A stretch of DNA of 35,040 bases from a virus: IMG/VR virus record IMGVR_UViG_3300035682_000102, positions 1 to 35,040 of that record. One strand, written 5' to 3'. The position numbers were made by a program, and so were the translations under genes. Under the pieces are notes generated by a model. That model was given only the letters and a program-made list of their open reading frames with translations. It searched no databases and was not told the origin of the DNA. This document shows, in pieces, positions 1,888 through 33,492 of the stretch; within the stretch, counting starts at the first letter, position 1; every line of letters starts with the position of its first letter.

Positions 1888-2586
1888 GTGGCTGATGTGC
1901 GGATCGCGCTTGGTGGGTTCGGATCCGAGGGCTGGGGAGATGCAGCCTGGGGTGAAGGAAGCGTTTCTGTCTCGGCAACGGGGCAGGTGGGATCCGTCAC
2001 GGTTGCGGCAAATAGTGATGTTACGCTTACAGGTGTTTTTGCCACAGGGCAGGTAGGAAGCGTTGCGGTTACTGCAACGGCGGACGTTCCTGTTGCGGGG
2101 CTGTCGGCCACAGGTCAGGTAGGAAGTGTCTTAGTCACGGGCCAAGCCAATCTAACTCTTACGGGTGTGGCTGGAACAGGGCAAGTTGGTTCTGTGGTCG
2201 TGACCGCCGCATCTGATGTTCCTGTGACAGGTGTTTTTGCTACAGGAAGTATAGGCGCGGTACAGGTAACGGCAAATGCGGATGTGTTTGCCGTAGGGTC
2301 GCAGGCGCTAGGCGCAGTAGGAAGCGTTGTTGTTACTGGAACAGCAAATATCCCCGTTGTAGGATTGTCTGCAACGGGCTCAGTTGGATCAGTGTTTGTC
2401 ACGGCGGACGTAGATGTATTTGTCACGGGTGTGCAAGCGCAGGCGCTTATTAACCCCGTTTTGGTATGGGGCGTGATTGATGACAATCAGACCCCTAACT
2501 GGCAAAATGTGGACGATGCGCAAAGTACAAGTTGGACCCCAGTAAATGATTCTCAGGCAGTAGTCTGGACTAAAATAGCAGCATAA
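1888..2586 (+). CDS. tail-associated repeat protein (GTG start)
   Basis: 232 residues from a GTG at 1888, preceded by a G-rich Shine-Dalgarno (1878-1883); no ATG is better placed. After an N-terminus with GGFGSEGWGDAAWGEG come seven perfectly sized 22-residue beta repeats (consensus ATGxVGSVxVTAxADVxVTG, residues 30-183). The C-terminus has three 11-residue units of the form (I/V)(D/N)DxQxxxW, ending WTKIAA. This architecture recurs in tail-fibre regions of aquatic phages. It probably forms an elongated beta rod or acts as a fibre-attachment protein. The role is inferred from architecture and from the fibre gene next door. Confidence 0.8.
   Translation: MADVRIALGGFGSEGWGDAAWGEGSVSVSATGQVGSVTVAANSDVTLTGVFATGQVGSVAVTATADVPVAGLSATGQVGSVLVTGQANLTLTGVAGTGQVGSVVVTAASDVPVTGVFATGSIGAVQVTANADVFAVGSQALGAVGSVVVTGTANIPVVGLSATGSVGSVFVTADVDVFVTGVQAQALINPVLVWGVIDDNQTPNWQNVDDAQSTSWTPVNDSQAVVWTKIAA
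1975..2436 (+). repeat. seven tandem 66-bp (22-residue) coding repeats
   Basis: Seven in-frame units of exactly 22 codons begin at the GCA of 1975. The ATGQVGSV core opens units 1-3, with variants GTGQVGSV, ATGSIGAV, ALGAVGSV and ATGSVGSV in units 4-7. Units alternate between two endings (near TLTGVF and VPVAGLS), which suggests duplication of a two-unit block. DNA identity between units is partial, so the array is old or under diversifying change. Confidence 0.85.
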
Positions 2587-2598
2587 AGGAAGATCAAC

Positions 2599-5500
2599 AT
2601 GGCAATCAACTACACAACTTTACTTGGCCTTGCACAACCTGTCACGGGCACTGAATCCAACGTGTGGGGGGACGCTGTTAATGATCAAATTACCGCACTT
2701 TTAGACAGTGCGATTGCGGGTGCGGCTACGATTAGCGTGACTGCAGGAAACGTGACGCTCACGGATTTAGATGGTGCAGCGGATCAGGCGCGGATGGCGA
2801 TTCTTATTTTGACAGGAACGCCTGGTACAACGCGAAACGTGGTGGCGCCTTCACGAAGCAAGACATATATTGTTATTAACCAGTCGGACGCTTCTGCGGT
2901 CATCAAAGGTTCGGCGACCACGGGTGTTACGGTGCGCGCGGGTCAAGCGGCCACCTGCGTGTGGAATGGGACTGACTTTGAGATTGTGGCTTCGGGCGAT
3001 GTTGACGGTCCCGCCTCAGCAACAAACACTGCCGTTCCCACGTTTGATGGCACAACGGGCAAGCTAATTCAGAACAACTCAGGCGTGACGATTGCTGCTA
3101 ACGTCGTGACTGCCACTGGGTTCACGGGTGCTTTAAACGGCACTCTGGGCGCAACCACTCCAGCCACAGTCGTTGCCACGCAAGTAGACATCACAGCTCA
3201 AGGCGACTTGCGCCTGCAAGACACCACAGGCGGGCAGTATGTAGCCTTACAAGCCCCCGGAACGATTGCTACTAGCTACACCCTTACCTTGCCTACCGAT
3301 GATGGCACAGCGGGTCAGGCGCTGATTACAGATGGCTCAGGTGTGTTGTCATGGTCTACCGCTGCATCAGGCGATGTTTATGGTCCCGCCTCTGCAACAG
3401 ATAACGCCGTAGCTCGGTACGATGGCACAACGGGCAAACTGATTCAAAACTCAGCCGTTACCATTGCTGACGATGGCGCGACTGTCATTGCTGCTAATAG
3501 TGCGTCTGATGGTCTGAGAATCACGCAGATTGGTGCGGGTAACGCTCTGTTGGTTGAGGATAGTGCTAATCCTGATGCAAGTCCGTTTGTGGTGACTGCC
3601 GATGGAACTGTGATTCGTGGGTATACAAGTCCTGTCGTAACTGATAATTATGTAGGTACGCAAGGAACTCCACTTATTCAAACTCACGCTAACGCTACCA
3701 CTGCTTCTGGGTTAGCTAGTTTTGTGTGGGAATCTTCAGCAGTATCTCCAGCACCATCTGTGATACTTAGCAGAAGCAGAAGCGCAACTATAGGGTCTTT
3801 TTCTTCTGTTGCCAGTGGCGATGCTATCGGGGCAATCAATTTTAACGGTGACGATGGAACTGCTTTTGTTGTTGGCGCATCAATTCTTGCATCAGTAGAC
3901 GGAACCCCGGGCACAAATGATATGCCCGGTCGCTTGGTGTTCAACACCACGGCTGATGGTGCGTCTAGCCCGACTGAGCGGATGCGGATTAGCTCGTCTG
4001 GAGCAATCGGTATTGGTACGGCGTTAACACAAGTCAACCTGTACAACACAAGAAACCTTTCGGGCAACGTCACATCATACGGCAATTATTTACAAGCTAC
4101 TATTCAATCCGATGTTACAACATCGGCGATTGGTTACAGGTCTGCGCTTAGTACGGTTGCGAGCGCTTTTACTTTAAGTTCTCTGTACGGATTTTATTCT
4201 GGACAAGGGACAATTGGCGCTGGCTCAACTGTTACAAATCAATTTGGTTTTGTAGCAGACTCATCCCTCACAGGCGCAACCAACAACTACGGATTCTACA
4301 GCGACATCGCAAGCGGCACAGGTCGTTGGAACTTCTACGCTGCGGGTACGGCAAGCAACTACATGGCAGGTAATTTAGAGATTGCCTCTACAAATGCCAC
4401 TGCGTTGTCCGTGGTTGGCGGTGCAACAATTGGAAATGCAACGGCGACAACTGGCTTAACAGTTCAAAGCGCAATCAATTGGAACTTTTCACCTTTAAAT
4501 GTTATTAGGTCAGCAACAAATACGTCTACGCCTAGACTGATTGCTATGCCTTTAGGCGGCGACAGTTTATCGTCTGCATCAATAGGTGACTACAACGCTA
4601 TTTGGGGTATTTACAACGCATCACCATCAGCCGCATCAACTTCTTCCGCACTTCAAGGCGAGATGGCTCTTGCCGCATACTACGGTCATCGTTGGTATGT
4701 AAATGGTATTGAGCGTGGTCGAATATCAAATACTGGCGTATGGTCATTGGGGGCTACAGCAGGCACAGAATCCCTGCGTGTCACGCCTGTTGCTAGTGCG
4801 GTGAATTACGCAGAAGTTAGGGGCAATGTAACAAGCGGCAACCCTTTAATATTTGCAAACGGTTCTGATACAAATATTGGATTAAATTTATCAAGCAAGG
4901 GTGTAAGCGGCAATCTGTTCTACACAAACGCTGGTGCTAATTTGCAATTTGTAGTAGCCCACACAGCCTCAGCAGTTAATTACATTTCCGTATTTGGCGC
5001 ACCAACAGGAAGTGGTGGATACCTACAAGCGTCTGGCTCAGACACAAACATACCGCTTGTTTATTCTTCTAAAGGCAATCGAGAACACGCTTTTTACACA
5101 GATGGCAATTCTTTTACTCAACAATTCCGCATTTCCCACACAGCCTCAGCAGTTAACTACTGGGTTTTGACAGGCGCAGTAGCCACAGGTCAACCGTCAC
5201 TACAACCCGCTGGTAGCGATACAAATATCAGCGCGGCATTTACAACTAAAGGGACTGGAAGTCACGTATTTTATACAAACAACTTAAACTCAGTCGGTTT
5301 AGTCATATCCCACACAGCCTCAGCAGTTAACTATCTGCAAGTGACGGGTGGTGTAACAGGCGATAGCCCGTCACTTAGCGCACAAGGTTCTGATGCAAAC
5401 GCAACAATCAAGTACCTATCTAAAGGTACTGGCAATCATTTCTTCTACACAGGCACATCACCTGCTTTACAGTTTGTTGTAGCACCTACAGCCTCAGCAG

Positions 5501-11787: not shown

Positions 11788-13908
11788 ATGGCTGAAGCGA
11801 TGCAAGGAATAATGGCGCTCCAAGGGGCGTCGGACATGGGCGGACAAGCCGCTCCTGAACTAAATGTAACCCCTGAGCAGATGGCGGCGTTTGAATCGGC
11901 GCGTGGCCAGATTGATCCCGTTGAGTTTGGAAGCGAGTTGCTCAGAGCGGGGGAGCAAATTGATCCGATGGAACTAAAAAGCCTGCGAGACATGCTCAAG
12001 CAGGCTAATTTGTCTCCACAAATTATTGACGCTATCGGTCAGATGGTAGACACGGTTTTAGCCGAACCAGAAAAATATCAAGAAATTCGGGCAAGGTTTT
12101 TGGCAGAAGGCGTGCCAGAGGATCTCTTGCCGGCGCAGTTTGATGCAGAATTTTTTGCCGCGTTGAATTTGGCATTGGATCAGGTTAACACTTCTTTTCC
12201 GCAGGACAACCCCATGCAGGGAGGCATTGCATCAATGCCTATGGGCGCTGCGATGCCGATGGTTGAGCCTCAGGCGTTTGCTTTGGGCGGACTGGCTTCT
12301 CTAAAACCCATTCCCGCAGGTCTTGCAAAAATGGGTCGAAATGGCGACACCATGCTTGCACACATTACGCCGTCTGAAGCACGATTACTGCGTCGTCGAG
12401 GCGGTAGCGGCACGGTTAACCCTGCAACAGGGCTGCCAGAATTCTTTTTGGACAAAGTCTTTAAGTCGGTTGGAAACGCCTTTAAGGCTGTTGGAAAGGC
12501 TGTTGTTTCAGGGGTCAAGGCTGTTGCTAAGGGCGTAAAAAGTTTTGCAAAAAGCACCGTGGGCCGTGTCGTAATTGCAGTGGCACTTGCTTACTTTCTG
12601 GGTCCTGCTGCAGCCAGTTTCTTAGGCGTCACGTCAACGGTAGGTGTGGCCGCAGTGGGTGGTTTTATTGGTGGTTTTGGCTCAACTTTGGCCGCGGGAA
12701 AGGGCTTTAAAGAGGCCTTAAAAGTAGGTGCAATTGGTGGCGTAGGCGCAGGGATTGGTGCAGGTGTGATCGGTGGCGCTAGTGCATTTTCAGCAGGTAG
12801 TTACGCAGGCCCTACTACGGTGGGCGGACAGTTTGATAACCTTGTGTCTGGCGCCAAGGGCTTGGTAGGGGTAACCCCTGCGGCACCCGGCGCAGAAGCC
12901 TTGCCCGTACCCGCTCCCTCTTCCCTGTCAGGAACAACTGACTTGTCTGCCTTACCCATGCCTAGCCCTCCTCCTGTAGAGGTTTCCTCACTATCCCCTA
13001 CCAACGTGGCCTCCGCACCGTCTGTTAACTTAGACAATTTAAATTATCAGCCCCCTTCTTTTCCAGGGCAGGGCAATGTAGCAGGTGTGGGTAGAGAAAT
13101 GGGAATGTACACGCCGGGGGAGACTTCCTACGGCTCATCCGCCGTACCTGTCACCCCGCCTGCGGCAACCCCTGACGCAGTAGATATATACGGTCTACGT
13201 ACAACCCCAAAAAATGCTTTTTCATTCAGCACAGCTTCACCTACTCCACCGCCCCCACCCGGCGGGGCAGAAAAAGGGTTTTTGGGAAACCTTTTTGACA
13301 AGATTAGTCCTTCTACTCCTTCGGATACGGCGCTTGCTCAAATAGGGGACAAAGCAGTAAAAGCATTAGGAGAAGGTGCTTCGGAACAAGCTAAGAGATT
13401 TGCTTTTGACAACGCCGTCAAAAACGCTACGCCGAGCTTGCTAAGACAATACGGCCCGCTTGCTTTAGGCGCTTTAGGTCTGACAGCGGTTTCTGGGGGC
13501 TTTAAACAGCAACCCGTAGAACCACCGAATCTCACCGGCGGGGTGACAGGGGAACAACTGCTTGAGCAAGATCCGGCAAAGTATCGTCCGTTTTTTGGAG
13601 GCGTGAGGCGCGTAGCCTCTACGCCTACCTCGTACTACACTCCCTCGACTTACACAAACGACGTACGCCCCGTAGAACCTGTCCGTAATTTTGCACAAGG
13701 CGGCATCACTAGCCTAGATGGATATCCCAAAAAACAAGGCGCGATTAACGGCGCGGGAACAGGGACGTCTGATTCAATCAAAGCGTTGCTTTCGGACGGA
13801 GAATTCGTGTTCACGGCCAAAGCGGTACGGGGCGCGGGCCAAGGGTCACGCAGAAAAGGCGCTAAACGGATGTATCAGCTCATGAGATCCCTAGAAGGAA
13901 AAGCATAA
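11788..13908 (+). CDS. large membrane-active virion protein, possible internal/ejected protein
   Basis: 706 residues from ATG 11788, with GGAAAGG 7 nt upstream. An acidic helical N-terminus (1-150) is followed by FALGGLASLKP and MLAHITPSEARLLRRRGGSG. Then comes a Lys-rich amphipathic region (about residues 220-265: FKAVGKAVVSGVKAVAKGVK), a hydrophobic segment (VVIAVALAYFLGPAAASFLG) and a glycine-zipper run (about 285-340). The middle is Pro/Ser-rich. The C-terminus carries NFAQGGITSL and the tape-measure-like LLSDGEFVFTAKAVRGAGQG. The combination suggests a virion protein inserted into the host envelope during DNA entry; this is inference. The stop overlaps the next start (TAATG). Confidence 0.7.
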   Translation: MAEAMQGIMALQGASDMGGQAAPELNVTPEQMAAFESARGQIDPVEFGSELLRAGEQIDPMELKSLRDMLKQANLSPQIIDAIGQMVDTVLAEPEKYQEIRARFLAEGVPEDLLPAQFDAEFFAALNLALDQVNTSFPQDNPMQGGIASMPMGAAMPMVEPQAFALGGLASLKPIPAGLAKMGRNGDTMLAHITPSEARLLRRRGGSGTVNPATGLPEFFLDKVFKSVGNAFKAVGKAVVSGVKAVAKGVKSFAKSTVGRVVIAVALAYFLGPAAASFLGVTSTVGVAAVGGFIGGFGSTLAAGKGFKEALKVGAIGGVGAGIGAGVIGGASAFSAGSYAGPTTVGGQFDNLVSGAKGLVGVTPAAPGAEALPVPAPSSLSGTTDLSALPMPSPPPVEVSSLSPTNVASAPSVNLDNLNYQPPSFPGQGNVAGVGREMGMYTPGETSYGSSAVPVTPPAATPDAVDIYGLRTTPKNAFSFSTASPTPPPPPGGAEKGFLGNLFDKISPSTPSDTALAQIGDKAVKALGEGASEQAKRFAFDNAVKNATPSLLRQYGPLALGALGLTAVSGGFKQQPVEPPNLTGGVTGEQLLEQDPAKYRPFFGGVRRVASTPTSYYTPSTYTNDVRPVEPVRNFAQGGITSLDGYPKKQGAINGAGTGTSDSIKALLSDGEFVFTAKAVRGAGQGSRRKGAKRMYQLMRSLEGKA

Positions 13909-15458
13909 TGGCTACCGAATACGTCGAATCGATCCAACGGGAAGCGCCAGAGATTGAAGCCCGAAAACTCGGGCTATTAGACGAAGCGCGGCGCCTGTAT
14001 GGGACTCAGCTTGCACTCCCCGAGTATCGCGCAGCGGGGCTTGCCCCTTCTACTTTGCGTGCGATTGACCTTGCCTCTCAGGGCGTGGGGGCATATAAGC
14101 CTTTTATTGACGCAGCAAGTGCGGGTATTTCGCAGGGTCAAAACCTTGCACAGCAGGGCGCGCGAGGCATTGGCAGTATCAACCTGTATCCCGAGTTTTC
14201 TCAGGCACAGAATGCGCAACAACAAGCACTTGCCGTTGCCGGACAAATCCCCCGATACGCGGATGTTGCGGGGCTGGGCTATGGCTCTGTTGCGCAAGGC
14301 ATGGAGACGGTAGCCGATGCAACGGGCACGGCCAGACAATACGAGCAAGCAAACCTCGCGCCCTCACAAGCGCTGCTAGGTGAGGCTGCACAACGCACGG
14401 CAGGTGTTTCGCCCGTATTTGCTCCTGCTCAAGGCACGATTGCACAAGGTATCGGAGGGATTCAAGGCGCTGCACAAGCCTATGACCCGAGTGCTGTCAG
14501 CAGTTTTATGAATCCGTATCAACAGTTAGTGACGCAACAAGCGCTTCAAGAGATGCGCCGGCAAGCCGACATTGCTAAAACAGCAGCCGCATCTCAGGCC
14601 GTTCGCGCAGGCGCGTTTGGCGGCACACGCGAAGGCGTGCAGCGAGCAGAAACGGAGCGTGGCGTACAAGACGTGATGGCTCAACGTGCTTTTCAAGATT
14701 ACGCGCAAAATTACGCGCAAGCGCAACAAGCGGCCACGGGCACTTTTGAGCAACAGCAGCAACGCCAACTGGCTGCCTCGCAGGGGCTGTCTCAAATGGG
14801 CTCGCAACAAGCCGCCGTGGAAGCGCAGAAAGCTCAATTAGGTCTTGCCGGAGCAGGGCAACTCGCAAGCATTGGCTCGACCCTTGGCCAACAGGGGCTG
14901 CAGCAAACACAGCTCGGTCAATCTGGTGCGCAATTAGCAGGAAGTCTTGGCGCGCAACAAGCACAGTTAGGACTTTTGCCGGCTCAGATAGCCTCACAAC
15001 AGGCGGGTATCGCAGGTCAGGGTGCGCAACTGTATGGCGCCATCGGGCAGGGCATTGGAAGTCTGGCGGCACAAGAAGGCGCACTAGGCTTACAACAGGG
15101 CACGGCGCTTGGGCAATTAGGCGCGACAATCGGACAACTAGGTACCCAACAGGGAGCCGTGGGCCAAGCGGGGCAACAAATGCAAACAGCCGATATTAGC
15201 AACCTGACACAACTCGGCGGTTTGCAGCAGCAAAACGAACAGGCACGTCTAGAAGCGGAGCGCGCAACAACTTTGCAAGAAACGATGGCGCCTTATCAGC
15301 AACTGGGCTTCATGTCCGACGTTTATCGCGGTGCGCCCACTACTCAATCTACGCTGACTGCGCAGTCCGCGCCCTCCGTCTCGCCCTTAGTCCAAGCTGC
15401 GGGATTGGGGATTTCCGGTTTGAGCGCCGCAGCAGGCGCTCAAAAACTATTTGGGTAA
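13908..15458 (+). CDS. Gln/Ala-rich helical virion protein
   Basis: 516 residues. It has extreme Ala, Gln and Gly content, with recurring QQ-A-Q-L-G-x-A-G units between residues about 230 and 450 (GSQQAAVEAQKAQLGLAGAG, SLGAQQAQLGLLPAQIASQQ). It is predicted to be long alpha-helix or coiled coil, with an N-terminal segment EYVESIQREAPEIEARKLGL. Position between two other large virion proteins and coupled translation suggest an internal or ejected protein. The repetition is at protein level, with imperfect DNA identity. Real function unknown. Confidence 0.7.
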   Translation: MATEYVESIQREAPEIEARKLGLLDEARRLYGTQLALPEYRAAGLAPSTLRAIDLASQGVGAYKPFIDAASAGISQGQNLAQQGARGIGSINLYPEFSQAQNAQQQALAVAGQIPRYADVAGLGYGSVAQGMETVADATGTARQYEQANLAPSQALLGEAAQRTAGVSPVFAPAQGTIAQGIGGIQGAAQAYDPSAVSSFMNPYQQLVTQQALQEMRRQADIAKTAAASQAVRAGAFGGTREGVQRAETERGVQDVMAQRAFQDYAQNYAQAQQAATGTFEQQQQRQLAASQGLSQMGSQQAAVEAQKAQLGLAGAGQLASIGSTLGQQGLQQTQLGQSGAQLAGSLGAQQAQLGLLPAQIASQQAGIAGQGAQLYGAIGQGIGSLAAQEGALGLQQGTALGQLGATIGQLGTQQGAVGQAGQQMQTADISNLTQLGGLQQQNEQARLEAERATTLQETMAPYQQLGFMSDVYRGAPTTQSTLTAQSAPSVSPLVQAAGLGISGLSAAAGAQKLFG

Positions 15459-15470
15459 TAAGGAAATACC

Positions 15471-17573
15471 ATGAAATCAAAGGTAATGGATCGCCCTCTT
15501 TTCAAGGGTCCTACGGTCCCCGACGATCAGGTAGAGAATGTCGGCATCATGCAGGGGTTTTTGGATGATGAGGATGATCTTGAGTTGATGCTCGGGCGCG
15601 ATGAGGATGAAGAGGAAACCAGCGAAGAGGATCAGAACAATGAGTCGATGAGCCGCACGCCTCGCACGCCTGAAATCCTTATGAACAACTTGCGTGGCGA
15701 CATGCGCTCAATGGATGCGCGGGTCGAGGAGCTTGCTGACTTAGTGGGCTACAACGCTGCGATGGACACACCTGAAGAGGTGTTGATGTTGTTGCAGCCA
15801 GTGTTGGCAAAGCAAGGGATTGGCGGCTTGCCTGCGGGTGGTGTCGGTGGCGCAGCACCTGCAATGCCTCCCGCAATGCCCCCAGCTATGGGTGCAATGC
15901 CTCCTCCTCCTGCAATGCCTCCCGAGATGCCTACTGCAATGGAGCCCGCCGCACCGGGCGCCGCGGGCATTGAATCTTTGATGGCACCTCCTGCCCCACC
16001 GCCCATGGACCAAGCGCCTGTGCAAATGAGGGACGGGGGCTATGTTCAGCGTTTTCAAGCGGGGTCCGATGAGGAGGGCGTGACCCCAGCAACAACATAT
16101 CCTCCAGAGATGGTTAAGTATGCGCAAGAGCAGTTGATGGCGCAGCGCGGGTCAGGCAACTTGAAACAAGCTGTTGCCGATGTTATGCCGACTTACCGAG
16201 ACATTCTTGGTGGCGGAGATCGTCGCACGATGCAGGGTCAGGCGCTGATGGACATTGCACAGGCGGGCTTACGGATGGCTTCTGGCCGTAATGCGCAGGG
16301 AGCGAACATTGCAGGAGGCTCTTTTGCCTCGCAATTAGCCTCTGCTGCCGAAGGGTTGCCCGGCAAACTTGCCGAGCGCGCAGGACAGTTTCAGCAAGAA
16401 GAGCGGGCTATTAAATTAGCGGCATTGAAGTCTGCTGAAACAAGCGTGGAAGGGCAGCGTAAACTTTTTGCACAGATTGTGAAGAGCGCGGGGCAGAGCC
16501 CATTTGGTAAAGGTGACTGGGACTTTGCTGTCTTAAATCGTCCAGGTCTTTTGCAGAAATACGCAGATGGTAAGACTTCTCCGGAAGAGGATAACCTGAT
16601 TGATTCTGCTATCACCAAGATGCAGGCTCCAAGGACAGAATTTAAAACTAATCCCGATACAGGCATCGTAGAGCCGCGCCAAATACAAGGTGTGTTGCCT
16701 CCTTTTGTGGCGGCGGCAATTAATACGCGCAGGGGTGGTGGCGGCACTTCCACTACTACGCCTACCGCTACTGTCTCCAAAACCGGAGATTTGTATGCAA
16801 TAGGTAGCCCCACGGGTGTACCGGACACCTTCTTTGGCGAGAATAATACGGTTGTTGACAAAAAAGGTAATGTTGTATTTGATGCCTCGATTCGTAATTC
16901 AGCGGGAAAGATTATTGACGTAGCAGTACTTCCAGATAAATTTAATCCAGAAAAAAAAGCTTCCCTAGCTAACAGGGGTGTTGGCGTCGTTCAAGCCGGA
17001 ACACCAGCCTCGCCTCAGACGCCGCAGGTGCAGGAAAAACCGCCTATTGTGTTTGAACAAAACACTCCTACCCTTTATAACTCAGCAGCGTTGGGATCAG
17101 GTGTGGTCATTCCTGTTGCATGGGCAAGATCAAAAGTTATCCTTGGAGATTTATTTCCTGAAAGTTTGGATGAGTCTATCCAACGCAATCAATATCTTAA
17201 ACTTTCCGTTTTTGGTCTTAATAGATCTCTTGCAAGTAGCCCAAGATTTGCAGAAGGGGAACGTAAACAACTGCAAAATGCAATGAACTTAGACCCTGAA
17301 ATCTTGACGCGTCCCGAGGCTCTTCAACAACGCATTATTGGTATAGATGATGTATTTTTGCAAATCAGAAGAAACGCTGTTAATACCTTAAAAAATGCAG
17401 GTAAGGTAACTGTTGAAATGCGTAAAGAGGCGCTTGAAAAAGTGCAAGAAATTGATAATGCCCGTATGATTCTTGGTGTGCCACCTCGCGCTTACACTCA
17501 AGCTGAGGTCGCTGAACTGCCTTCTGGAACACGCTTTTTATGGAAGGGAAAACGTCTTATGGATCGGGATTAG
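15471..17573 (+). CDS. large virion protein with acidic and Met/Pro-rich regions
   Basis: 700 residues. Residues 30-60 are highly acidic (DDEDDLELMLGRDEDEEE). A helix (MRSMDARVEELADLVGY) follows, then a low-complexity Met/Pro/Ala stretch (about 125-180, PPAMPPAMGAMPPPPAMPPE). MRDGGYVQRFQAGS follows, a short motif like those in the neighbouring virion proteins. The rest is mostly helical with RTMQGQALMDIAQAGLRMAS. AAGGAAAT precedes the ATG. It belongs to the same run of large late proteins and is probably internal to the virion. No enzyme domain is visible. Confidence 0.7.
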   Translation: MKSKVMDRPLFKGPTVPDDQVENVGIMQGFLDDEDDLELMLGRDEDEEETSEEDQNNESMSRTPRTPEILMNNLRGDMRSMDARVEELADLVGYNAAMDTPEEVLMLLQPVLAKQGIGGLPAGGVGGAAPAMPPAMPPAMGAMPPPPAMPPEMPTAMEPAAPGAAGIESLMAPPAPPPMDQAPVQMRDGGYVQRFQAGSDEEGVTPATTYPPEMVKYAQEQLMAQRGSGNLKQAVADVMPTYRDILGGGDRRTMQGQALMDIAQAGLRMASGRNAQGANIAGGSFASQLASAAEGLPGKLAERAGQFQQEERAIKLAALKSAETSVEGQRKLFAQIVKSAGQSPFGKGDWDFAVLNRPGLLQKYADGKTSPEEDNLIDSAITKMQAPRTEFKTNPDTGIVEPRQIQGVLPPFVAAAINTRRGGGGTSTTTPTATVSKTGDLYAIGSPTGVPDTFFGENNTVVDKKGNVVFDASIRNSAGKIIDVAVLPDKFNPEKKASLANRGVGVVQAGTPASPQTPQVQEKPPIVFEQNTPTLYNSAALGSGVVIPVAWARSKVILGDLFPESLDESIQRNQYLKLSVFGLNRSLASSPRFAEGERKQLQNAMNLDPEILTRPEALQQRIIGIDDVFLQIRRNAVNTLKNAGKVTVEMRKEALEKVQEIDNARMILGVPPRAYTQAEVAELPSGTRFLWKGKRLMDRD

Positions 17574-17582
17574 GAAAACAAC

Positions 17583-20500
17583 ATGACCACACCATCAAAC
17601 ATTCCTGAAGAACTTATTGGGTTAGCTAAAAATCCTCAAGAGCCCCCTGAAGCGAGTCTTCCAGAGGGTGCTACAGCAGTAGAATCTGACTACGGCCAAA
17701 AGTTGGAGGCAGCAGGAGTCGGGGGCTTGCGCGGCGCAGTAGAAGGCGCCACTCTTGCAGGATCCACGGTGGCGGGTGCCAAGCTTGGAACTTTGGCTGC
17801 TCCTTTCGCAGGTCCTCTAGCACCTGCTATGCCTGTTATCGGAGGTCTTGGGGGTTTTGCTTACGGTCTTTACGCCTCCGACGCAGTAGGTAAGCTGTTT
17901 CCCACGGCAACAAAAAAAGACGTAGAGCCTTTTTATGAGGGCGCTCGAACCTTTAGTGGCGGACTTGCTTTTTCCCCTGCGGTTATGTTTGCTAAAGCGG
18001 CAAAAACAGGAGCAGGTGTTGTAAGTCAAACAATTGGTGCGATAGGGGAATTTGCCCGCGCTAATCCAGGCAAGTATTTTGCCGCAGAGGGTTTGTCTAA
18101 TTTTTATGCAGGTCTTGCAGGGGGTTCTGCAGTTGCTAAATTTCCTGATCAGCCTTTAGTTAAGGCAGGAGCAGAAATCACTGCAGGAGTAGCAGGCAGC
18201 TATCTTTCGCCGGGACGTTTGGCCATTACCTTGTCAGGTACCGTAAGCGATGCACTTACTAGTGCACTATCGAGTACAACTGGGCAGGGTTTTTCAGACA
18301 GTACAACGAACTATGTCATCAAGCAGTTGCTTCCAAATATCAAGGCAGCAGGGGAAGACCCAAAGGCTATATTAAAGGCGATTGATGAGACGCTTGCTGT
18401 AGGAAAAGCAGAGGGTGTGGTTACCACAGGCACGGTTGCTCAAGCATCTGGCTCTCCTTTCATGACAAAACTTCAGAGCACCCTTGCGCGCTTTAACGCA
18501 AAGTTTTCTGGCGACACAAAGGAAATGGGCGAGGAAGTCATAAAAGCATATGGCGAAGCTGCTCGTAAGCTTGAGTCTACAGGCGACCCGGCTCTCTTAA
18601 AAGCAGCGGCAGAATTGCGCAAGACCGCGTTTGCCGATCAATTTCAAAATGGCTTTAATATTGCGCAAACAAACGCTGCTGATAAGGCGTCCAAGCTTGG
18701 TGCAAAAGGTTCTGAAAATCGCGCTGTGGTCGGAAATATTCTTAAGACAGAGATGGAAGACCTTCTTAAACTTGCACGGGAATCAGAATCACAGCTTTGG
18801 AAAAAAGCTGAACTAGACATGTATCAACAAGCGGGCGGCAAGTTAAAACCCGTTAAAATTGTTCCATCCAAGTTTGCAAATGCGTTATACGATGTCATGC
18901 AGTCTTCTACGCGTGGTCAAAGGGCAGAGGATTTTGCAGGAATTGGTGGGGACTTATCTGTTCTTGGTTTTAATGCAAAAAAGATTAAGCAATTAAACAA
19001 GATACCTGTTACAGAAGATTTTTTACAGACACGGGTGGTGGCGCCAGAAGATATTGCTGGGCTAGGACTCAAACCTAAGTCTGCGCCTGAAATGGTGAAG
19101 TTGCGGGGAAGCCTATTGGAAAAAGCACGTGTGGCAGGTGCTGAAGGCAACATGGCCGCGGCTCGTCGTTATGGCATATTGGCTGAATCTTTACTTGATG
19201 ATTTAGACGCAATTCCAGGAGGCGCGTACAACGACGCGCGAACCTTTAGCCGTGAATTAAACAATGCTTTTACGCGTACCTTTGCGGGCAAATCCTCCAA
19301 AACAGATAGGACAGGCGCAGAGGTGTTTACGCCTGAAGTGCTTGTTAAACGAGCCTTTGGTTCAGAAGCAGACACTACGCTCATGCGTATGAAAGATCTT
19401 ACAGAGGCGGCTAACTTTGTTGATCCAACAGGAGCCGCTGCTGTTTCCGTGCGCGATGCGGAGCAAAAGGTTATTCGTTCCTTGGCCGCTGAAGTTTTAG
19501 ACGAGAAAGGCAATGTTGACCTAAGCAAGCTTGACGCATTTAGAAGTAAGAATGCCGACACGCTTAAATACTTGGGCATGGAAAATGAATTTAATGATAT
19601 CGCAAGCACACAGCGCGCGTTGTTAGAGGCCTCGGACCCAAACTCTTTGTTAACAAAAAGAATTAAGGACGAAAAAGCGTTTTCATCACTATTGGAAGTC
19701 GATGATCCTGCGACTGCGGTTTCACAAGCCTTGACGGACACAATTTCGCCCGTTAAAAACTTTAAGTCTCTTGTTGCGACAGCATCATCCCCTACGGATC
19801 CAATCGAGAAAGCAGCCGCGCGCAACGGGTTATTGTCCACGATTTACCAGTACGCTTATCAGACTGCGAACAAAAGCGGTACGTTTAACGCAAACGTGTT
19901 TAATGACATTTTGTTTAAGCCGTTGTCCCCAAACAATCCATCGTTATCACAATTAATGCGTTCTTCTGACCTAGTGTCAGTAGATGAAGTTGCTCGCTTA
20001 AAGCGAATGACCACCACTATGACAAGAGTGGAGGACACCTTAAATACACAAGCAAGAATAGTCGATCCCAACATTGTTTTTACGCCCCAAGATGCATTAG
20101 AGGATCTTGCAGTCTCCATGTTGGGCGCTAAGTTTGCGGGTGCAATTAGTCCAGGGGGACCAGGGTCTCTTTCTATTGCGTCCCGAACAATAAACATGAC
20201 GAGAAACTTCTTTAACCGAGCGCCTCAACGTCAGCGTTTACTGTTATTAGAAGAAGCGGTTAAAGATCCTGCGCTCTTTCGCCAGTTAGTAGCACGTGGT
20301 ATCACGGAAGAAGAAAGTAGCAATATGGTCTCCGGTATCTTGCGCCGCTTGCACTCTCCTAGCGTATACCCAACGGTGCTGGATCGTTACGTGGATGTTT
20401 TGGAAACAAAAGAACCCACTCCTGAGGAAATACAACTCAATAAAGAAAAACAGCAGCGGCCGTATTTTCGCAACCCTCCGCTTCTACCCGCGCGCACCGG

Positions 20501-20690
20501 TTCCTCGCAGTCGCAACAAATGCTCAGATCCTTGGCTGTTGCGCCACAGACAAGAGGAATGCCCACGTTAACCCCAAAACCACAGAGCGCGGCTCCCGCA
20601 CCGGGACCACAAAGCGCGGCCCCTTCAGAAAGCCGAAAAATGCTTGCCTCTCTCTTCCCAGAGGATCGTATGTTGCAGGGAGCACAGTAA
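17583..20690 (+). CDS. very large helical virion protein, likely ejected
   Basis: 1035 residues. The N-terminal quarter has glycine-zipper/membrane-like segments (GVGGLRGAVEGATLAGSTVA, APAMPVIGGLGGFAYGLYAS, ITAGVAGSYLSPGRLAITLS). A long, mostly helical body of about 700 residues has no recognised catalytic motif. The C-terminus is Pro/Ser-rich with two SAAPxPGPQSAAPS-like units and a repeated (Q/R)(M/K)(L)xSL element (QMLRSLAV and KMLASLFP). The stop abuts the next ATG. By size, gene order and membrane-like start it resembles the large internal proteins that short-tailed phages eject to build a DNA channel; this is inferred, not shown. Confidence 0.7.
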   Translation: MTTPSNIPEELIGLAKNPQEPPEASLPEGATAVESDYGQKLEAAGVGGLRGAVEGATLAGSTVAGAKLGTLAAPFAGPLAPAMPVIGGLGGFAYGLYASDAVGKLFPTATKKDVEPFYEGARTFSGGLAFSPAVMFAKAAKTGAGVVSQTIGAIGEFARANPGKYFAAEGLSNFYAGLAGGSAVAKFPDQPLVKAGAEITAGVAGSYLSPGRLAITLSGTVSDALTSALSSTTGQGFSDSTTNYVIKQLLPNIKAAGEDPKAILKAIDETLAVGKAEGVVTTGTVAQASGSPFMTKLQSTLARFNAKFSGDTKEMGEEVIKAYGEAARKLESTGDPALLKAAAELRKTAFADQFQNGFNIAQTNAADKASKLGAKGSENRAVVGNILKTEMEDLLKLARESESQLWKKAELDMYQQAGGKLKPVKIVPSKFANALYDVMQSSTRGQRAEDFAGIGGDLSVLGFNAKKIKQLNKIPVTEDFLQTRVVAPEDIAGLGLKPKSAPEMVKLRGSLLEKARVAGAEGNMAAARRYGILAESLLDDLDAIPGGAYNDARTFSRELNNAFTRTFAGKSSKTDRTGAEVFTPEVLVKRAFGSEADTTLMRMKDLTEAANFVDPTGAAAVSVRDAEQKVIRSLAAEVLDEKGNVDLSKLDAFRSKNADTLKYLGMENEFNDIASTQRALLEASDPNSLLTKRIKDEKAFSSLLEVDDPATAVSQALTDTISPVKNFKSLVATASSPTDPIEKAAARNGLLSTIYQYAYQTANKSGTFNANVFNDILFKPLSPNNPSLSQLMRSSDLVSVDEVARLKRMTTTMTRVEDTLNTQARIVDPNIVFTPQDALEDLAVSMLGAKFAGAISPGGPGSLSIASRTINMTRNFFNRAPQRQRLLLLEEAVKDPALFRQLVARGITEEESSNMVSGILRRLHSPSVYPTVLDRYVDVLETKEPTPEEIQLNKEKQQRPYFRNPPLLPARTGSSQSQQMLRSLAVAPQTRGMPTLTPKPQSAAPAPGPQSAAPSESRKMLASLFPEDRMLQGAQ

Positions 20691-30667: not shown

Positions 30668-33492
30668 AGACAACACCATTGTTCCCAATGCACTCCGAGT
30701 GGCTGCCTCCGCAGTCCTTCCCCGATTTATCTCAAGCAAAGGAAATTGCAATTGATCTCGAAACCTGTGACCCAAATCTGGAAAAGTTCGGCCCCGGATG
30801 GCCAAGACGAGACGGCTACATTGTCGGTTACGCCCTCGCTGTTGACGGATGGAAAGGGTACTTTCCTGTTGCTCATCAGGGCGGAGGGAACTTGGACAAG
30901 CGGCTCGTCGAGCGGTACATTCAAAAAGTTCTGGCGACGAACGCTGACAAAGTCATGCACAACGCCGCCTACGACTATGGATGGCTCATGGCTCATGGAT
31001 TTACCGTTAATGGTCGTATCTACGACACCATGCTCGCGGCCGCCGTCTTGGACGAGAACCGTTACTCGTACGCTCTCAACAGCCTGGGCTTCGATTACCT
31101 CAAAGAGGTCAAGTCCGAGCAAGGACTAAAGGAGGCGGCCGCCGACTTTGGCGTACACCCGAAAAAGGACATGTGGAAACTTCCCGCCATGTACGTGGGC
31201 GACTACGCCGAGCAGGACGCGGCGCTCACGCTCAAGCTCTGGAACCAATTTAAGATCCTGCTGCGCAAAGAGGAAGTCGAATCCATCTTTGAGCTAGAAA
31301 CCAACTTACTTCCCGTGCTCGTCAAGATGACCTTCCAGGGCATCCGCTTTGACCGTGAAAAGGCAGAGCGCTGTATCAAGGACATGAAGACGCGCGAGGA
31401 GGCGCTTCAGAAAGAGATCAAAACGGCCGCTGGGATGTCCGTAGATATGTGGGCCGCCGTGAGTATTGCGCGCGCCTTCGATGCGCTTGGCGTGGCTTAT
31501 CCGCGCTCCCAAACGGGGTTGCCTAGCTTTACCAAGTCGTTCCTTGACTCCAACCCCCATCCCCTGTCAAAAATGATCTTGGAAGCACGTGAGCTGAACA
31601 AGACTCACGGCACGTTTCTGCAGCCCTACCTAGACTTCTCTGACGTGGACGGGCGTATACACCCCCACGTGAATCAGTTGCGCTCCGATGGCGGAGGGAC
31701 GGTTACTGGCAGGCTAAGTATGTCTGAGCCTAATCTACAGCAAGTGCCCGCGCGCCACGAAGTGATCGGCCCCCTGGTTCGCTCCCTCTTTCTCCCAGAA
31801 GAAGGGCAACTGTGGGCAGCAAATGATTTCTCCTCTCAAGAACCACGGATCTTGATTCATTACGCCAACCTCCTGAACCTCCCCGGTGCGGACAAAGTGG
31901 CCGAAGCCTACAGGAGCGACCCGGCCACCGACTTCTACCAAATTGTGGCCAACGCGGCGAGCATCTCGCGCAAAGAAGCCAAGACCTGTATTGCGGAAGG
32001 TCAGCTTGTTTTAACTGAGCGTGGGTTAGTGGCGATTGAAAACATAACAGTAGACGATAAAGTATGGGATGGGGTAGAATGGGTGAACCACGATGGCGTG
32101 GTCTATATGGGCGAAAAAGAGGTAATTAGCTATGGCAATCTCACCGCAACACCGGATCACGACGTCTGGACCGTCCAATGGGGGAAGATACCTTTCGGGA
32201 TCGCAGCATCAAGACTGGATGCACTTGTACCCACCGGAAATGCTGAACAAGCAATTCAATATGTGGACAATCATCAGCAGGGAAATACAGCGCAAAGGTC
32301 ATCACCACTACATCAAAGCTCGATGTGCCTGTGGGAAAGAGGACTGGAAGTGCTTAGACAATTTAAAAAGTGGCAAATCAACAATGTGCCACAGATGCGC
32401 AACAAAAAATCGTCACATAAGGGAGGGGAATCTGGATGTAACCTCGAAAGAGGTTGGGTACTTACAGAACCGTGCAACGTCTATTTTCCAACGATGCAAC
32501 AACTCCAACGACAAGGGCTACAAACGATATGGAGCACGTGGAATAAATTGCGCATTCGATTCGGTCAAGGAATTAGTCGAATACTTGATAACTCTTGCTC
32601 CAGCAAAAGATTGGATAGGAAATACAATCGACAGGATAGACAACGACAAGGGCTATATGCGTGGCAATTTGCGATGCATCAGTGTGTCGGGCAACAATGC
32701 CAACCGACGCAATACAGTGTTCGTGTCTTATCGTGGCCAGAAAGTATGCATAGGGCATGTTTGGCATTTGATCAGGCACGACAATCCACAGTTCACTTTT
32801 GGAAATATGTATACGCAGAAAATACTCAGAAGAGGAATGACTCCGGAAGAAGTGTTGAACAAACCAAGGGTCGGAAATCGAAGGTCTACGACATTATCAA
32901 TGCCGGACCCCGCAATCGTTTCACTGTATCGGGAGTGCTAGTTTCCAATTGCTCTTTGGGTATGATGTACGGCATGGGTAAGAATAAGCTTGCCGGACAG
33001 CTAGACATGCCCGTGGATGAGGCCTCTGAGCTCATCGCCACCTTCCACCAGAAGGTGCCCTTTTTGCGCGGCACAGTAGACGCCGTCATGCGTCGCATAG
33101 AGCACCCCGCCTCGGGCGGCGCCATCCGCACGCTCTTGGGCAGGAAATGCCGCTTCCCACTCTGGGAGCCCACCGCGTGGGGCATCAACAAGGCACTCCC
33201 CTACGAGCAAGCCATGGTGGAGTACGGCCCACGGATCAAGCGCGCCATGACCTACAAGGGCCTGAACAAGCTTATCCAGGGGTCGGCCGCCGATCAGACC
33301 AAGGCCGCCATGGTGGCGCTAGATCGCGCAGGATTTCGCGTGCTCCTCCAAGTACACGACGAACTGGCCGTGAGCGTGAATAGCCGCGAAGAAGCAGAAG
33401 AGGCTGCGCGCATTATGTGCACCGCGGTTGAGCTAGAGGTGCCCTCCCGCGTAGACGTGGAAATAGGCCCTTCTTGGGGTGAAGCAAAATAA
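30664..33492 (+). CDS. polA: DNA polymerase I (family A) with intein in motif B
   Basis: 942 residues from GTG 30664 (overlapping the helicase stop, with AAAAAGG upstream). The proofreading exonuclease is intact: Asp31 and Glu33 (AIDLETCD), Asn100 and Asp104 (HNAAYDYGW), Tyr181 and Asp185 (GDYAEQDA). Polymerase motif A is WAANDFSSQEPRI (Asp388); motif C is QVHDELAVSV (Asp899). Motif B is split: KEAKT, then the 321-residue intein (442-762), then CSLGMMYGMGKNKL. Joined, the two sides give AKT-CSLGMMYGMG, a normal O-helix. The spliced enzyme is 621 residues, usual for phage versions without a 5' nuclease. It replicates the phage genome and needs splicing to be active. Confidence 0.95.
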   Translation: MKTTPLFPMHSEWLPPQSFPDLSQAKEIAIDLETCDPNLEKFGPGWPRRDGYIVGYALAVDGWKGYFPVAHQGGGNLDKRLVERYIQKVLATNADKVMHNAAYDYGWLMAHGFTVNGRIYDTMLAAAVLDENRYSYALNSLGFDYLKEVKSEQGLKEAAADFGVHPKKDMWKLPAMYVGDYAEQDAALTLKLWNQFKILLRKEEVESIFELETNLLPVLVKMTFQGIRFDREKAERCIKDMKTREEALQKEIKTAAGMSVDMWAAVSIARAFDALGVAYPRSQTGLPSFTKSFLDSNPHPLSKMILEARELNKTHGTFLQPYLDFSDVDGRIHPHVNQLRSDGGGTVTGRLSMSEPNLQQVPARHEVIGPLVRSLFLPEEGQLWAANDFSSQEPRILIHYANLLNLPGADKVAEAYRSDPATDFYQIVANAASISRKEAKTCIAEGQLVLTERGLVAIENITVDDKVWDGVEWVNHDGVVYMGEKEVISYGNLTATPDHDVWTVQWGKIPFGIAASRLDALVPTGNAEQAIQYVDNHQQGNTAQRSSPLHQSSMCLWERGLEVLRQFKKWQINNVPQMRNKKSSHKGGESGCNLERGWVLTEPCNVYFPTMQQLQRQGLQTIWSTWNKLRIRFGQGISRILDNSCSSKRLDRKYNRQDRQRQGLYAWQFAMHQCVGQQCQPTQYSVRVLSWPESMHRACLAFDQARQSTVHFWKYVYAENTQKRNDSGRSVEQTKGRKSKVYDIINAGPRNRFTVSGVLVSNCSLGMMYGMGKNKLAGQLDMPVDEASELIATFHQKVPFLRGTVDAVMRRIEHPASGGAIRTLLGRKCRFPLWEPTAWGINKALPYEQAMVEYGPRIKRAMTYKGLNKLIQGSAADQTKAAMVALDRAGFRVLLQVHDELAVSVNSREEAEEAARIMCTAVELEVPSRVDVEIGPSWGEAK
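32118..32122 (+). promoter_or_regulatory. Shine-Dalgarno for the nested endonuclease
   Basis: AGAGG lies 9 nt before ATG 32132, inside intein codons for KEV. The other in-frame ATGs (32219 and 32240) have no comparable site. This supports independent internal initiation of the endonuclease on the polymerase message. Confidence 0.55.
32132..32941 (+). CDS. HNH-type homing endonuclease nested out of frame inside the intein
   Basis: 269 residues in the +1 frame relative to the polymerase. A zinc finger is seen at Cys65, Cys67, Cys86 and Cys89 (RCACGKE and MCHRCAT). The core is RCNNSNDKGYKRYGARGI (121-138) and TIDRIDNDKGYMRGNLRC (165-182), then NNANRRN (188-194), the signature of phage HNH homing endonucleases of the T5 F-Tfl type. 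A C-terminal GMTPEEVLNKP resembles a DNA-binding tail. ATG 32132 has AGAGG 9 nt upstream; the family-like part begins at Met37 (32240), so residues 1-36 may be extra. The stop lies 8 nt before the intein ends. It probably cuts intein-less polymerase genes and so spreads the intein. Confidence 0.88.
   Translation: MAISPQHRITTSGPSNGGRYLSGSQHQDWMHLYPPEMLNKQFNMWTIISREIQRKGHHHYIKARCACGKEDWKCLDNLKSGKSTMCHRCATKNRHIREGNLDVTSKEVGYLQNRATSIFQRCNNSNDKGYKRYGARGINCAFDSVKELVEYLITLAPAKDWIGNTIDRIDNDKGYMRGNLRCISVSGNNANRRNTVFVSYRGQKVCIGHVWHLIRHDNPQFTFGNMYTQKILRRGMTPEEVLNKPRVGNRRSTTLSMPDPAIVSLYREC

Follow-up and report, generated by a model that had tools for sequence, protein, structure and literature searches.

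Large inteins carry their endonuclease, of the LAGLIDADG or the HNH type, as an in-frame domain between the N- and C-terminal splicing blocks, and they show a presence/absence distribution at conserved sites of replication genes. In fractured genes, a free-standing endonuclease gene is located between the halves of a split intein. HNH genes are also often carried by group I introns, and free-standing HNH genes of phages can act in the competition between co-infecting phages. The closest published precedent for the arrangement reported here is the hidden HNH gene of the ShiLan insertion in mycobacteriophage methylases, which is out of frame, is not accompanied by intein motifs and shows no recognizable ribosome-binding site (Arsenault, Gosselin and Gogarten 2025, PMC11855218). 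The insertion is thought to remain in the methylase, and its patchy distribution suggests homing (PMC11855218). The same paper cites a preprint on actinobacteriophage inteins, referring to a non-canonical architecture (10.1101/2025.01.02.630785). In the literature searched, outside the scope of which this preprint falls, an intein with a nested out-of-frame endonuclease is not described. The same literature holds no description of the dual-coding arrangement of P45/P46 in APSE-1, for which the RefSeq record (NC_000935) annotates P46 as an HNH endonuclease inside the P45 DNA polymerase; PMC549080 cites the APSE-1 genome paper for phage inteins.

The sequence analysed is the IMG/VR virus record IMGVR_UViG_3300035682_000102, the whole of which (35,040 bases) is called the window here. 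Its family-A DNA polymerase (Pfam DNA_pol_A, 3.6e-51, and DNA_pol_A_exo1; phrog_17, 2.9e-111) is encoded by a single ORF of 942 codons with zero stops, which contains an intein in polymerase motif B (Table 1). The Cys1 codon occupies positions 31987-31989, the codon of the terminal Asn ends at 32949, and the next residue is a Cys, in agreement with the initial annotation, which had noticed both intein ends in a polymerase frame free of stops for 321 codons. The motifs CIAEGQLVLT, TATPDH, KVYDIINAGPRNRFTVSG and VSN/C (the slash marks the splice junction) are all present in this frame. Thus, the insertion has the N-terminal Cys, the block B TxxH, the C-terminal Asn and the Cys+1 of an intein, in frame with the host gene; C1, T55-H58 and N321 are invariant in a polymerase-frame alignment of nine homologues, and Cys+1 is present in the window sequence. 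The penultimate residue in this intein family is Ser, the usual one being His. A precise empty site, KTIGLGLMYGMG, exists in phage DSL-LC04, and motif B is likewise empty in most metagenomic polA relatives. The region is indeed more AT-rich than its surroundings, as had been pointed out before, with a GC content of 0.459 (core 0.442) vs 0.556 and 0.606 in the flanking polymerase.

Table 1. Features of the polymerase locus of the window (positions refer to the 35,040-base record)
Feature	Position	Strand	Evidence
Family-A DNA polymerase precursor (intein-containing), phage, 942 aa	30664..33492	+	Pfam, PHROG, unbroken ORF
Intein, 321 aa, in polymerase motif B (RKEAKT / C...N / CSLGMMYG)	31987..32949	+	Splicing residues, empty sites
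Shine-Dalgarno-like site AAAGAGGT, 8 nt before nested ATG, made of KEV intein codons	32116..32123	+	Sequence
Nested HNH endonuclease ORF, +1 vs polymerase, 269 aa, stop TAG 32939-32941	32132..32941	+	phrog_374, synonymous-divergence pattern
N-terminal extension of nested ORF, dual-constrained, overlaps intein block B	32132..32239	+	Both frames conserved
Four-Cys zinc-binding motif of nested protein (C65, C67, C86, C89)	32324..32398	+	Cysteines invariant in nine-sequence nested-frame alignment
HNH nuclease core of nested protein	32480..32716	+	phrog_3377 and phrog_374 matches
C-terminal splicing blocks F/G (KVYDIINAGPRNRFTVSGVLVSN)	32881..32949	+	Invariant or nearly so in polymerase frame
C-terminal polymerase extein, starting with Cys+1	32950..33492	+	Sequence, Pfam

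The +1 frame of the intein contains a complete protein of 269 codons with four Cys residues and an HNH signature, as had been recognized from the letters alone. It matches PHROG 374 (HNH endonuclease) with an E-value of 9e-25 and carries the motif IDRIDNDKGY..GN..NRRN; beside the zinc-binding cysteines, D167 R168, N179, N188 and N191 R192 R193 are invariant in the nine-sequence alignment of the nested frame, so that profile and conserved catalytic and zinc residues both identify an HNH endonuclease of the PHROG 374 type. The coordinates proposed for it initially need a correction: position 32240 holds as the beginning of the HNH core proper, but the ORF itself starts at 32132, in the block B region of the intein. 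At its other end, blocks F/G are read in +1 as the last part of the nested protein, as far as 32938. The nested HNH had no Pfam match at E <= 1, a first HNH search among viral contigs, in which the protein of the window was the query, returned distant matches only, and PDB sequence searches gave nothing useful. Because the AlphaFold models were weak (pLDDT 65.7, a middling value, for the nested HNH and a poor 32 for the intein frame) and a PDB fold search with the HNH model found no real match, we make no structural claim.

Like the ShiLan insertion, the one in the window harbors an out-of-frame HNH gene, leaves the frame of its phage host gene open and is patchily distributed. However, it is an intein with all splicing residues, it resides in an active-site motif of a polymerase, and a Shine-Dalgarno (SD)-like site precedes its nested ATG, so the presence of splicing blocks sets it apart from a ShiLan-type element. 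With large inteins it shares the splicing blocks at its ends, the endonuclease between them and the presence/absence at conserved sites of replication genes; here, in contrast, the endonuclease is a separate protein in +1 (in relatives also +2), and the in-frame middle is an unconserved linker, in which no PHROG match was found. The resemblance to fractured genes lies in a free-standing endonuclease gene associated with intein halves, but the polymerase of the window is one ORF with an unsplit intein, and it is this intein that the endonuclease gene overlaps, in a different frame. APSE-1 P45 also has a nested +1 HNH ORF in a polA intein, yet at another polA site and with an HNH of a separate lineage.

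Relatives of the polymerase were gathered by extein sequence, and therefore the set is unbiased towards HNH. Motif B was empty in 121 locus hits and occupied by an intein at or near the window's site in 13 hits (nine contigs); all nine intein-bearing contigs had the HNH in the +1 frame and no stop in the polymerase frame. The same layout was found in about 40 partly redundant polA inteins from metagenomic phages, prophages and isolates, the latter including phages of Streptococcus, Gardnerella, Caulobacter, an aphid symbiont and Salmonella. The HNH frame was +1 or +2 in all loci examined, and an in-frame HNH was never seen. At a motif B site a few residues downstream, it is +1 in Gardnerella phage AB1, Streptococcus phages Javan255, Javan113 and PhiSdyV1524 and Bacillota prophages; it is also +1 at a second polA site in Caulobacter phage GB2A, APSE-1 and Shewanella phage SFCi1. 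The +2 frame is used in Jerseyviruses, Sodalis phage SO-1, Pseudomonas phage MR14 and EBPR siphovirus 2.

Stops were absent from the polymerase frame of every nested locus examined (19 plus about 23 more, in redundant sets). As a null model, we shuffled synonymous codons of the nested ORF and counted stops in the polymerase frame: shuffles of the window sequence averaged 13.4 stops and left the frame open in 0/3000 cases, and across the members tested 2.7-16.4 stops were predicted, P(open) ranging from 0 to 0.017. The third frame had 11-27 stops in loci found with the Streptococcus-type query. Free-standing HNH homologues contain, with few exceptions, many stops in both other frames, e.g. 9 and 17 or 22 and 44 in two from cultured phages; in L200-L207, the matched fragment by itself already contains 7-19 stops in the corresponding frame. 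The nested arrangement is thus neither chance nor a sequencing error.

Both frames also bear the marks of selection. Before the nested ATG, differences between homologues concentrate at codon position 3 of the polymerase frame, and in the HNH core they concentrate at polymerase position 1, i.e. position 3 of the nested frame. Amino acid identity of diverged pairs in the HNH core amounts to 0.60-0.73 in the nested frame, which is nearly twice as conserved as the polymerase frame (0.32-0.47); the latter value is about equal to that of the non-coding third frame. In the polymerase frame, the middle of the intein behaves as an unconserved linker, in line with the initial annotation. Among the eleven distinct inteins of the Bacillota/Gardnerella family, polymerase-frame divergence at four-fold sites is 0.67 in the extein and 0.67 in the intein before the nested ATG, falls to 0.27 in the N-terminal extension and 0.04-0.12 in the HNH core, and is 0.22 in block F/G and 0.66 in the extein after the intein; +1-frame divergence rises up to 0.61-0.65 in the HNH core. 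The onset of the fall, near nt 144-156 of the intein, coincides with the position of the ATG. The window's family has the same pattern, with a collapse from the nested ATG to the nested stop, and provides an internal control: divergence in block F/G is 0.20 where the nested ORF runs through, and block F/G is free (0.75) in a short form whose nested ORF ends earlier. In the Jerseyvirus/SO-1 set the coding pattern appears in the +2 frame, not in +1. Simultaneous constraint on both frames is seen in the N-terminal extension, where nucleotide identity is mostly 0.77-0.96 with few polymerase-frame synonymous changes, and in block F/G of the long form. This collapse and recovery of synonymous divergence at the ends of the nested ORF, together with the rise in the nested frame, provides direct evolutionary evidence for translation of both frames. 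The divergence profiles show that both have evidently been maintained, with the boundaries of the nested ORF being the places where synonymous constraint starts and stops.

The nested ATG is an out-of-frame reading through the Tyr codon that follows the KEV motif of the intein, and the SD-like site occurs at the same spacing in most +1 members at the window's site; a perfect AAGGAGGT is present at this position in two related loci (L011 and L050) and Gardnerella AB1. As KEV encodes GAGGTN, the SD-like site comes free with the intein motif. Its strength shows no excess over a null of synonymous recoding of the conserved KEV motif, and we have dropped SD strength as a sign of selected initiation; the site alone is no proof of it. 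A conserved splicing block nonetheless appears to double as ribosome-binding site and start for the nested ORF.

We consider the locus to be, very probably, a mobile intein in which the homing endonuclease, instead of forming a domain, has its own gene in a different reading frame of this DNA segment; a separate out-of-frame HNH gene in an unbroken intein, with one segment giving two proteins, was already the core of the initial annotation, and stops, shuffles, frame identity and synonymous divergence all speak for it. Translation in the polymerase frame would yield a precursor consisting of N-extein, N-splicing block, arbitrary linker, C-splicing block and C-extein, which would splice itself to give active polymerase. 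Internal initiation at the SD-like site and ATG (32116-32134), supplied by intein block B codons, would produce a free HNH endonuclease able to cut intein-free polA alleles, whereupon the whole intein would be copied. Selection on the essential polymerase would purge every stop from its frame, and selection on homing would preserve the HNH frame. The Ser in penultimate position, the ordinary strength of the SD-like site and the weak AlphaFold models count against this view. Splicing, internal initiation, cleavage and homing are steps we infer from comparative data, those speaking for homing by the nested HNH being the patchy distribution and a close empty allele.

Several other explanations were weighed. 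The nested HNH could be real and translated but have lost its homing role, serving for instance the competition between co-infecting phages, of which free-standing phage HNH genes are capable; we regard this as improbable, since homing accounts better for the patchy presence, for the related inteins at sites nearby (L076/L149) and for the existence of a close relative without intein. Somewhat less credible still is a programmed +1 frameshift out of the polymerase frame, which would make a fusion of extein-N, intein-N and HNH and no free enzyme. SD-like sites can also stimulate frameshifting, as in prfB, and one lies just upstream of the start region of the nested ORF. On the other hand, the window and most close relatives have an in-frame ATG at 8-nt spacing, the drop in synonymous divergence starts at about this ATG, and the +1 and +2 families would each require a frameshift signal of their own.

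The possibility that a group I intron rather than an intein is the HNH-bearing element is very remote. HNH genes are frequent in such introns, and in Sodalis phage SO-1 (L223, 2333-3091) the nested HNH ORF is annotated within a type I self-splicing intron (gp38/gp39). But the SO-1 locus has the sequence of an intein and no intron in Rfam, none of seven nested loci matched at Rfam curated thresholds and the window region did not even at relaxed E; furthermore, every intein splicing residue is conserved and all members keep the frame open, which introns do not need. Lacking a match to the intron RNA core, this explanation was rejected. The probability that sequencing or assembly indels have displaced an ordinary in-frame endonuclease domain is close to nil: the window is a metagenomic assembly, but identical frames recur across metagenomes of independent origin, complete phages from isolates and genomes of bacteria, and the constraint signatures require a long history. 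Compensating indels, which had been named as a possible refutation, are excluded because independent assemblies and isolates have the same frames. The suggestion in the initial annotation that the locus is a missing link between mini-inteins and split inteins found no support and is given a low probability, a little below that of the frameshift. A free-standing endonuclease gene in an intein is the geometry expected before fracture, but no split derivative occurred among the loci examined, and the derivatives seen are inteins in which the HNH is missing or decayed and the polymerase frame is intact.

Returning to the proposed mobile dual-coding intein, its nearest polA relative (L010) shares about 84-88% nucleotide identity over polA and the upstream neighbour gene and is without intein. 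L076 and L149 have a related nested intein at a position of this polymerase motif that lies five residues further downstream than the window's site, which suggests site shifting of the insertion. Intein-bearing alleles at the window's site have a common flanking extein type, TDFYQIVA...AKT/C; most empty alleles have a different flank, TDFHQMVADMAG...AKTIGLGLMYG. As the intein-type flank also occurs in six empty hits, it may result from co-conversion, from a site preference or from precise loss. L043, L049, L051 and duplicates are empty polA genes whose flank, TDFYQIVADAANVPRKVAKTCTLAIMYSAG, hardly differs from the flanks around the intein of L050, and represent, possibly, a precise loss or a pre-invasion allele. 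In L162 and L215, the nested HNH frame is broken by a stop and the polymerase frame is open: the homing gene has decayed and the intein has been retained. The HNH is reduced to remnants in several others (Javan422/S. porci L164/L199/L219; S. sciuri L220, L221), and Ruminococcus phages L165/L166 probably represent HNH deletions too. Some of the mini-inteins in this set, at least, seem to descend from nested inteins and not to be ancestral to them.

The nested arrangement is widespread and old. In the nuclease tree, the root of which is uncertain, the second-site family (GB2A, APSE-1, SFCi1) lies among free-standing HNHs and apart from the others, and this, together with the frame difference, suggests two or more origins. 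It seems rather likely that phage polymerase inteins include widespread, repeatedly evolved dual-coding mobile elements with an out-of-frame homing endonuclease, with no fewer than two origins, given the HNH lineages of two polA sites, and probably a third one in the +2 family, kept in Bacillota, Actinomycetota and Pseudomonadota phages, and using block B as built-in ribosome-binding site and start codon. The finding, very probably a dual-coding mobile intein, is real and more general than first thought. Splicing and homing of a mobile intein then do not require one polypeptide, or even one reading frame; an endonuclease may be hidden in phage "mini-inteins" or in inteins whose large insert lacks an explanation, and the routes of endonuclease genes into and out of inteins become testable. 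The loci further provide a natural, well-replicated case of a long same-strand gene overlap under measurable dual selection.

Some additional observations were made along the way. The window polymerase matches the NCBIfam model of DpoZ, an aminoadenine-incorporating polymerase (E 2.6e-91), well below the model cut-off, and NCBIfam searches with ten further proteins of the window gave no match to PurZ or DatZ. Three long ORFs (516, 700 and 1035 aa) at 13908-20687 of the window had no PHROG match at 1e-5. In T5-like Escherichia phage ST4 (L169, 687-4109), DNA polymerase I consists of two ORFs with an HNH-like gene (2501-3157) between them; no group I intron was matched in this locus, which was considered as a candidate split intein and could be another element type. 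Moraxella phage Mcat21 (L174, 2159-3091) has a short intein without HNH in an extein that looks like a flavin-dependent thymidylate synthase. In the record of Jerseyvirus Ent3, the polA intein is marked as splicing domains only. The neighbouring helicase gene of this Salmonella phage (L222, 4673-5678) has an annotated LAGLIDADG intein, so that two intein types are present in one replication gene cluster.
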